The notes beneath the pieces are model-generated. The model was not told the origin of the DNA, did not search any database, and saw only the letters and a program-made list of their open reading frames with translations. This document shows positions 19,998-22,574 of a stretch of DNA of 64,000 nt, in pieces. A program made the translations under genes and the position numbers. This stretch comes from Halopenitus persicus. GTDB taxonomy: Archaea; Halobacteriota; Halobacteria; Halobacteriales; Haloferacaceae. Location: contig NZ_AP017558.1 in assembly GCF_002355635.1 (NCBI RefSeq), positions 1,922,001-1,986,000 of the forward strand, in the 5' to 3' direction. Numbering within the stretch: the first letter of the stretch is position 1; each line of letters opens with the position of its first letter.

Positions 19998-20837
19998 CTA
20001 TCGGTCGTTTTCGTCCGGGTCCGTTTCGTCCGCTTTTCGCGCGTCCGTTTCGTCCGCCTCATCCGTGTCCGTTCTCACCTCATCCTCGTCCGCGAACGAT
20101 CCCCGTCGGATCGCCGCCTCGGCGGCGGCGAGCGCCTCCTCGCGGTCGAAGGAGTCGATGACGTACGCCAGCTCCTCCGGCGGCGCGTCGGCCAGCCGGC
20201 GGGCGTGGTGGGTGATGTTGGGCACCGCCCGGAGGACGTTGTCGATGATCGGCACCGTCGCGGCCCGCGCCGACCGGGAGCCGGGATTCAAGTCGATCAC
20301 GATCTCCGTCTTCCCGGTCTCCCCGAGCGCCTCGGCGCGGTCCCCGTCCTCCAGGGGGACGAGCACGACGTCGGCGGCGCCGATCCCGTCGGCGTCGACC
20401 GTCGCGCGCTCGTGGGACAGCCCCGGGATCCGGCCGTCGGCAGTCAATCCCTTGACCTCCTCAGCTCCGTGATCGCGGAGATGGGCGGCGATCCGCTCCA
20501 TCCGCTCGGTCGTGCGGTTGAACAGGTTGACCTCGATGTCGGCCCCGGTCGTCGCCGCCAGCTCGACGATCGCCTCGGGCACGAGGGCGGCGACGTTCCC
20601 GTTGACCGAGAGCACGGGATGGTCGGCGGCGAGCAGGTGGGCGGCCGCGGCGCGTTCGGCGTCGCCGGCCGACGGGATCGTCTCCTCGCCGAGCAGGTAG
20701 TCGAAGGCCTCGCCGCGCCCTTGCGCGATCAGGCCCTGTCTCGAGGTGATCCCCTCGTCGACGCCCGCCTCGATCCGGTGTCGCGTCAGCAACGACTCGT
20801 ATCGCGGGTGATCCTCGGGGATCTCGGCGTCGGTCAT
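19998..20837 (-). CDS. 4-phosphopantoate--beta-alanine ligase (phosphopantothenate synthetase)
   Basis: A 279-residue archaeal CoA-pathway enzyme (former DUF137). It joins 4-phosphopantoate to beta-alanine, replacing bacterial PanC. Recognisable blocks are SLLTRHRIEAGVDEGITSRQGLIAQGRGEAFDYLLG at the N-terminus, HPVLSVNGNVAAL, ADIEVNLFNRTTERM and IVIDLNPGSRSARAATVPIIDNVLRAVPN. The last 25 residues are an Asp/Glu/Thr tail encoded by short repeats. The ATG at 20837 follows a TATA-like ACTTTTAAAC about 27 bases upstream. Confidence 0.92.
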   Translation of the reverse strand: MTDAEIPEDHPRYESLLTRHRIEAGVDEGITSRQGLIAQGRGEAFDYLLGEETIPSAGDAERAAAAHLLAADHPVLSVNGNVAALVPEAIVELAATTGADIEVNLFNRTTERMERIAAHLRDHGAEEVKGLTADGRIPGLSHERATVDADGIGAADVVLVPLEDGDRAEALGETGKTEIVIDLNPGSRSARAATVPIIDNVLRAVPNITHHARRLADAPPEELAYVIDSFDREEALAAAEAAIRRGSFADEDEVRTDTDEADETDARKADETDPDENDR

Positions 20838-20903
20838 ACCCCGGCTTCGGGGACCGTCGTTTAAAAGTGTTCCATCGATCGTGGCGATCGTCACTCGCCC
20901 GCC

Positions 20904-20953
20904 CGGTCAGCGAAGCCCCTCGTCGTTCCGAGTTCGGTCAGCGAAGCCCCTCG
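20904..20953. repeat. Spaced 19-base direct repeat at the 3' end of the Ogt-like gene
   Basis: CGGTCAGCGAAGCCCCTCG lies at 20904-20922 and 20935-20953. The second copy covers the last codons and stop of the minus-strand Ogt-like gene; the first is an extra copy just beyond it. Confidence 0.85.
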
Positions 20954-21408
20954 ACGTCACGAAACGTCCCGCGGACGGACCCGGGCGTCGCGTACGGGCC
21001 GCCCTCGACGCGGTGATCGGGGATCACCAACGGCGCCGGATTCTCGTTCAGCGCCGCCCGCACGAACTCGAGGTCCTCCGGGTCGTTGTCGTCCCGACCG
21101 GCCAGCCGGGTGAGCCGGCTGAGCGACGCCGATTCGCCGTACGGCAGGTTCCGGGCCGCCTCGAGGACCTCGCGGCGGTCGGTCGGAAGGGTGAGGCCCA
21201 GATCGACGTCCGCGAACGACTCCTCTTCCCCGGCCAGGTACGCGTCGATCCGGTCGAGCAGCTCGTGATCCTCCTCGGCGTCCTCGGGGACGTCGGCCGG
21301 GAACGAGACGGAGATGACGTGGCCGCTCGCGAACCCCACCTCGACGGCCCGGTCGAGGGCCGAGTACGAGCGCGCGTAGACGCCCGTCGTCCCGCCGAAG
21401 CTCACCAT
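20938..21408 (-). CDS. Alkyltransferase-like protein (Ogt/MGMT fold, catalytic Cys replaced by Asp)
   Basis: A 156-residue protein with the DNA-alkyltransferase C-terminal fold. The winged-helix segment is NLPYGESASLSRLTRLAG, followed by ALNENPAPLVIPDHRVEGG. In active Ogt/MGMT the last motif is (I/V)PCHRV with the alkyl-accepting Cys. Here it is IPDHRV, so it cannot accept an alkyl group. Alkyltransferase-like (ATL) proteins of this kind bind alkylguanine and recruit nucleotide excision repair. The ATG at 21408 is the only in-frame ATG; the frame stays open to 21507. Confidence 0.82.
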   Translation of the reverse strand: MVSFGGTTGVYARSYSALDRAVEVGFASGHVISVSFPADVPEDAEEDHELLDRIDAYLAGEEESFADVDLGLTLPTDRREVLEAARNLPYGESASLSRLTRLAGRDDNDPEDLEFVRAALNENPAPLVIPDHRVEGGPYATPGSVRGTFRDVEGLR

Positions 21409-21609: not shown

Positions 21610-21666
21610 ATGAAAAACGCCACCGCCGACCGTGTCCGCTCCTCGCCGGGTGCGCAAGCCTTATGA
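21610..21666 (+). CDS. Possible 18-residue leader peptide upstream of trpC
   Basis: MKNATADRVRSSPGAQAL starts about 30 bases after the strong TATA box, at the expected leaderless position, and stops 26 bases before trpC. It contains no Trp codon, so classic attenuation is not indicated. It may be incidental. Confidence 0.25.
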   Translation: MKNATADRVRSSPGAQAL

Positions 21667-21692
21667 ACAGATACGTACATTAGTGATCAGTA

Positions 21693-22574
21693 ATGGACGA
21701 TGGGATGAAGGACGATGGGATGAACGATCTCGCGCCGGCGGTCCGGTCGATCCTGGAGGCGTCCGCGTCTCGATCGGGCGGCGACGGACGCATCGACGTC
21801 GACCCCCGCGATCTCGAGGCGGCGTTCGCGGCGGCCGAACCCGACGGAACGCCGGTGATCGCGGAAGTCAAGCCGACCAGTCCAACCACCGATGGAACAC
21901 GCGAGGACGACCCGGTCGATCTCGCGACGCAAATGGTCGCGGGCGGGGCGGCCGCGCTCTCGGTGTTGACCGAACCCGAGCACTTCGGCGGGTCGACCGG
22001 GACGCTCGAGCGCGTTCGCGAGGCGGTCGACGTCCCCGTTCTTCGCAAGGACTTCCTCGTGCACGAGGGGCAGCTGGATGCCGTCGCCAGCGACGTCGTC
22101 CTGCTGATCGCCCGATTCCTCGGCGACGACCTCGAGCCGATGCTCGCGGCCGCTCGCGACCGCGGCTTCCAGGTTCTCGTCGAGGTCCACGACCGCGCGG
22201 AACTGGACCGGGCGATCGCCGCCGGGGCGCGTTTCGTCGGCGTCAACAACCGCGATCTGGCGAAGCTCGAGGTCGACCTCGGGACCTTCGAGGACGTCGC
22301 GCCCCAGGCTCCCGAGGACGTCACCCTGATCGCGGAAAGCGGCGTCACGACCGCCGCGGACGCGCGCCGGATGCGCGCGGCCGGCGCGGACGCGCTGTTG
22401 ATCGGGAGCGCCATAATGGACGGGGACGTTCGTTCGAACGTCCACCGATTCGTGACCGCCGACGCCAGCACCGACGCCAGCGCAAACGACGCCGATGCTT
22501 GCGAGACGACCGACGCCGATGCTGGCGGAACGATCGACGACAGCACCGCAACCCGCACCGTCGCCGACGAGTGA
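21693..22574 (+). CDS. trpC: Indole-3-glycerol-phosphate synthase
   Basis: A 293-residue TIM-barrel enzyme closing the indole ring in tryptophan synthesis. Visible blocks are [18 protein letters not shown] (catalytic Lys), [45 protein letters not shown] and [31 protein letters not shown] (phosphate loop). A disordered Asp/Ala/Thr tail of about 40 residues extends the usual length. The extreme N-terminus repeats DDGM from a GACGATGGGATGA duplication, so starts at 21705 or 21720 are possible. It heads the haloarchaeal order trpC-trpB-trpA. Confidence 0.95.

Follow-up and report, generated by a model that had tools for sequence, protein, structure and literature searches.

The window (the whole stretch of 64,000 nucleotides analysed here) encodes on its minus strand, at positions 20938..21408, a protein of 156 amino acids that has the Ogt/MGMT fold according to the ORF call, Pfam and an AlphaFold model, and that carries an aspartate at the position of the alkyl-acceptor cysteine. 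We propose, with a probability of roughly 0.55, that this crown haloarchaeal protein is an Ogt-derived pseudoenzyme, whose remodelled pocket now serves another ligand or partner. The proposal concerns a standard gene of the crown haloarchaea, one that is easily annotated as a repair alkyltransferase, a function that known chemistry makes impossible.

The open reading frame comprises 156 codons beginning with ATG, and its codons ATC CCC GAT CAC CGC GTC, which specify residues 129-134, bear out the claim of an earlier note on this DNA that the family's PCHRV motif here reads IPDHRV. The GAT codon of Asp131 (21016..21018, minus strand) aligns with the alkyl-acceptor position, human Cys145. Pfam DNA_binding_1 (PF01035) matches the protein with an E value of 1.1e-07 and 32 bits (cut-off 27), the NCBIfam ogt model TIGR00589 reaches 24.4 bits, under its cut-off of 46.4, and a sequence search also recovers solved Ogts. 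An AlphaFold2 model, built from 85 aligned sequences (the window protein, 80 other crown members and four relatives from families f5 and f11), has a mean pLDDT of 95.7 and shows a full Ogt fold with both the N-terminal and the helix-turn-helix C-terminal domain. By Foldseek and VIA-align the model matches Ogts along its entire length, residues 8-156 aligning to the two-domain Ogt, and the best VIA-align match is the Sulfolobus solfataricus OGT 4zyd (Z 18.6, rmsd 1.9, 140 residues). As judged from such comparisons, the relationship to the Ogt family is one of homology and not of chance. Among named relatives, Halopenitus persicus is nearest at 94%, followed by H. malekzadehii at 88%, and selection on the gene within Halopenitus is purifying by the estimates from three pairs (dN/dS of 0.16, 0.22 and 0.16). 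With the frame open and dN/dS at 0.16-0.22, a pseudogene can be set aside.

The gene is found throughout the class. A protein search (E<=1e-5) matched 390 of the 391 Halobacteria genomes; the sole exception, G339, is 88% complete and lacks a trpC match as well, so an assembly gap is likely there. When position 131 was read genome by genome in 119 crown genomes from 83 genera, Asp was present in 113, Ser in three, Thr in one and Ala in one, the gene being broken in the last, and Cys occurred in none of the 118 genomes read. Among 121 distinct crown sequences the corresponding numbers are 116 Asp, three Ser, one Thr, one Ala and no Cys, whereas the 30 best-scoring loci of the phylum outside the class, which served as the outgroup, all have Cys. 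The suggestion that an Asp variant would form a distinct class, with the IPDHRV-type motif conserved among haloarchaeal homologues, is therefore well founded, and a strain-specific mutation or sequencing error can be rejected, given that Asp is found class-wide. The Asp itself is not essential everywhere, since five of the 121 crown sequences carry Ser, Thr or Ala. The broken copy belongs to one haloarchaeal genome (G316, locus L174), where it adjoins trpC; it was excluded from the alignments, and the spirochaete Ogt L044 from the residue counts. No title among the literature matches listed, from a search with most subscription journals outside its scope, concerned an Asp-type haloarchaeal Ogt.

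Replacement of the cysteine is accompanied by further changes around the old active site. In an alignment numbered by human MGMT, we compared the 121 crown sequences with 60 Cys or Ser forms, made up of the four of f5 and f11, 26 Cys Ogts from haloarchaea and 30 Ogts of the outgroup. All 60 of these forms have the flipping Tyr114, which none of the 121 crown sequences has; in the window protein its place is taken by Leu96, which lies in the helix before the recognition helix (residues 96-102, at 21103..21123 on the minus strand, by model and alignment). Residues 155-158 of the substrate loop are deleted in all 121 crown sequences, and Lys165 is found in none. All 121 retain Asn137, Pro138, His146 and Glu172, and 120 retain Arg147. 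Asn137 and Glu172 correspond by alignment to Asn123 (21040..21042) and Glu153 (20950..20952) on the minus strand of the window, so the Asn ahead of the motif has been retained, as the earlier note had it. By the same alignment, Arg150 (20959..20961, minus strand), at the position of human Leu169, is newly conserved, with Arg in 117 of the 121 sequences and Gln in four. Direct alkyl transfer, which the earlier note considered impossible, would indeed be ruled out by known chemistry without the Cys.

The DNA-binding surface is a different matter. A helix equivalent to the recognition helix is predicted at residues 110-121 (21046..21081, minus strand, by model and alignment), with Glu114 at the position of the arginine finger; the view that the DNA-binding helix was kept is thus true for secondary structure only, because the DNA-contact residues have not been retained. 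Loss of the finger is not specific to the Asp form, however, as Arg at position 128 occurs in 14 of 121 crown sequences, in none of the four from f5 and f11 and in one of 26 haloarchaeal Cys Ogts, compared with 30 of 30 in the outgroup. In addition, the C-terminal domain is acidic in the crown form and in the f5 and f11 proteins, with a mean net charge of -5.1 and -5.3 respectively; the corresponding means are -1.2 for haloarchaeal Cys Ogts and +6.2 for the outgroup. Neither the missing finger nor the acidic domain demonstrates that DNA binding was lost, because Cys-bearing haloarchaeal relatives also lack the finger and the f5 and f11 proteins are equally acidic.

Families f5 and f11 are informative about where the Asp form came from. 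In all four of their sampled genomes the best match is a gene with a canonical tail, whose acceptor position is Cys in two (G020 and G285) and Ser in two (G382 and G217). These proteins (L104/L123, L103/L143, L144 and L141) differ from the crown form in retaining the flipping tyrosine, the loop and Lys165, and yet they appear orthologous to it by the gene tree and, for f11, by the neighbouring LonB and NMNAT genes as well. In a maximum-likelihood gene tree of 89 rows, the four group with the crown clade (100/99), and the combined group stands apart from the 26 other haloarchaeal Cys Ogts and the 30 outgroup Ogts; this tree took in 29 of the 121 crown sequences, and its bootstrap values were still short of full convergence. 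The same order emerges from an rpoB tree of 30 genomes, where f5 plus f11 (100/98) form the sister group of the remaining 24 Halobacteria rows (97/95). As for the neighbours, all 3 of the f11 loci have both LonB and NMNAT downstream; among 36 crown loci of 10 kb, 25 have LonB and 23 have NMNAT on that side. The family identity of these neighbours was verified in one locus of each kind. The f5 locus shares a TATA-binding protein gene with f11 but is without the LonB and NMNAT of the crown. This TATA-binding protein gene is upstream in 4 of 4 f5 and f11 loci compared with 0 of 36 crown loci, and in L141, L143, L144 and L123 the Ogt orthologue sits directly downstream of it on the same strand.

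Thus, the best reading is that a single gene underlies the crown protein and the f5 and f11 protein. Cys is probably the ancestral state, because the families that are sister to the crown in the rpoB tree carry Cys or Ser in what looks like the same gene, and its loss is best explained by two events, one on the crown stem and the other within f11. A lateral origin of the Cys forms of f5 and f11 is not favoured, since the gene and rpoB trees agree and f11 has neighbours in common with the crown. With Cys, Ser and Asp states of apparently one gene, these lineages lend themselves to a stepwise study of how an enzyme becomes a pseudoenzyme.

On the evidence of sequence we can point to the substitutions and how well they are conserved, to the tree and the neighbours in common, and to the predicted fold; the protein has probably had a different job since the cysteine and the base pocket were lost in the common ancestor of the crown haloarchaea. 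The course of events that we envisage would begin with vertical descent from an ordinary Cys-dependent Ogt, in which Cys would have given way to Asp on the stem leading to the crown Halobacteria. The base-flipping tyrosine would also have been lost and the loop holding the flipped base shortened by four residues, while a new Arg would have become common in the last helix; Asn, His and Glu, which surround the former active site, would have stayed invariant. A crown protein altered in this way would presumably no longer flip or hold O6-alkylguanine, and a pocket with Asp-His-Glu replacing Cys-His-Glu, perhaps together with the new Arg, may now serve as a non-catalytic site that binds another ligand or partner. 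Among known proteins the closest include the Ogt/MGMT alkyltransferases (SsOGT 4zyd, Mycobacterium tuberculosis OGT 4bhb and human MGMT): the crown form resembles them in its whole-length two-domain fold, its Asn-Pro, its His-Arg-Val and its C-terminal Glu, and differs in lacking the acceptor Cys, the flipping Tyr and Lys165, in the deleted substrate loop and in the acidic C-terminal domain.

The earlier note had suggested another role, that of flagging O6-alkylguanine for excision repair; the protein, like an alkyltransferase-like protein (ATL), would then bind the lesion and hand it to UvrABC. There is something to be said for this, in that the Ogt fold has been kept, Asn, His, Arg and Glu persist despite the replacement of Cys, and uvrA is found in the genome. 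ATLs such as Schizosaccharomyces pombe Atl1, Escherichia coli ATL and Vibrio parahaemolyticus ATL likewise have an MGMT-type C-terminal domain without Cys, and our model aligns with the ATL structures 3gva, 3gx4 and 2kif at Z 8.2-8.8 over 76-77 residues. In a review, however, ATLs and alkyltransferases are both described as conserving the arginine finger and the tyrosine, and ATLs as having mostly Trp for Cys and no N-terminal domain (PMC10779285). The crown form has Asp for Cys and possesses an N-terminal domain, lacks the tyrosine in every sequence and mostly lacks the finger, and its loop is deleted. It does not qualify as an ATL, which weakens the idea of lesion flagging; the sequences do not support such a role, and we regard it as unlikely.

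A lesion sensor might nonetheless be useful where no other family member exists, and for this reason the distribution of separate Cys Ogts is relevant. The genome studied here does have one elsewhere (C1:344848-345075, 103.8 bits, with PCHRVV), as the earlier note had thought worth checking, and it belongs to a clade apart from the Asp form. When 80 other genomes were sampled, a further PF01035 match of at least 60 bits was present in 29 of 76 other crown genomes by a hand count from the table, including a short match of 62.4 bits in G053, whose locus shows Cys. Read by pattern, 29 such loci (that of this genome and 28 of the sample) gave Cys in 28 and a misfit to the pattern in one. The remaining 47 of the 76 have no further match at that threshold, G339 being without any match, so that the crown protein is the only clear family member in 46. 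Other means of handling O6-alkylguanine would be of use to these 47 genomes, which speaks for an ATL-like sensor; conversely, if the crown protein binds no lesion, they would be without an identified alkyltransferase of the family at 60 bits, and the question arises of how they deal with O6-alkylguanine. The haloarchaeal Cys Ogts as a whole (L001, L075-L102 and others) form a separate clade, the one in which the arginine finger is so seldom Arg.

The gene's surroundings raise a further possibility, namely that the protein regulates transcription of the divergent trpCBA operon as a functional analogue of TrpY, the old pocket now sensing Trp or a related metabolite. In the window, the first gene of this operon, trpC, encodes indole-3-glycerol phosphate synthase at 21693..22574 on the plus strand (NF041303, 418.6 bits). 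The two genes stand head to head within 1.5 kb in at least 99 of 119 crown genomes and at least 66 of 83 genera, counts that short flanks make lower bounds, with a median gap of 140 bp between aligned ends; trpC itself is present in 389 of 391 genomes. No trpC was found in the fetched flank in 3 of 5 non-Asp genomes compared with 17 of 113 Asp genomes, numbers too few to link adjacency with residue 131. TrpY of Methanothermobacter is described as binding TRP boxes located where the trpY and trpE promoters overlap, and TrpY homologues are reported in haloarchaea (PMC6737238), where they would be competing candidates. We claim no homology between TrpY and the crown protein; the likeness is one of arrangement, a gene divergent from a trp operon with which it shares a promoter region.

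Between the two genes of the window, intergenic comparison and a weight matrix identify a conserved 41-bp promoter/start element of trpCBA (21653..21693, plus strand) that covers a TATA-like box and the trpC start. Its pattern, CGCAAGCCTTATG...CATTAGTG..CA.TAA, is strongly conserved in crown haloarchaea, with 82 of 102 distinct intergenic sequences fitting the anchor, and it looks like a putative single-site trp operator. Part of the element is palindromic, perfectly so over 18 bp in 9 of 102 sequences, and the best match to the 18-mer is at least 13 in 72 of 102, compared with at most 12 in shuffled sequences, although the 18-mer was derived from the same sequences. Many relatives have TGTACA in the element, which presumably resembles the TrpY box. 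The full pattern has one occurrence in this genome, at trpC, and the core is found at that site and at one other with three mismatches, a reversed control giving two hits. A weight matrix whose lowest training value was 34.4 recovered the element at trpC in each of 16 further crown loci, with scores between 38.9 and 70.9, and in none of the four f5 and f11 loci (-45.6 or less).

These observations make regulation of trp attractive, but the case is indirect and several of them cut the other way. In 14 of the 16 genomes the gene was seen apart from trpC, in three of them only 3-7 kb off, and yet the element stays at trpC, while none was found around genes without an adjacent trpC in 14 crown loci scanned over 4-10 kb. 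The helix region is acidic, and the other flank is also often conserved (LonB being an example), so plain synteny may explain the neighbourhood. On balance we think it rather unlikely that the protein is a regulator of trpCBA. Still more doubtful is the fuller scenario, in which a suicide protein of repair would have become, in the crown ancestor, a TrpY-analogue ligand sensor with an Asp-His-Glu-Arg metabolite pocket that acts at the trpC element.

An enzyme with new chemistry on the Asp-His-Glu cluster would account for the conservation of Asp, His, Glu, Asn and Arg150 in the crown sequences, but the Asp is replaced in five of them and no enzyme of the Ogt fold is known to use Asp in that role, which makes this explanation very improbable.

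As to the remaining surroundings of the gene, a scan for promoters and terminators of bacterial type, on which we place no weight, gave no promoter and one terminator-like site (0.3 in shuffles). The next gene downstream on the same strand (19998-20894, minus) encodes 4-phosphopantoate--beta-alanine ligase. Alongside LonB and NMNAT, an Rce1-like protease is encoded downstream in 24 of the 36 crown 10-kb loci.
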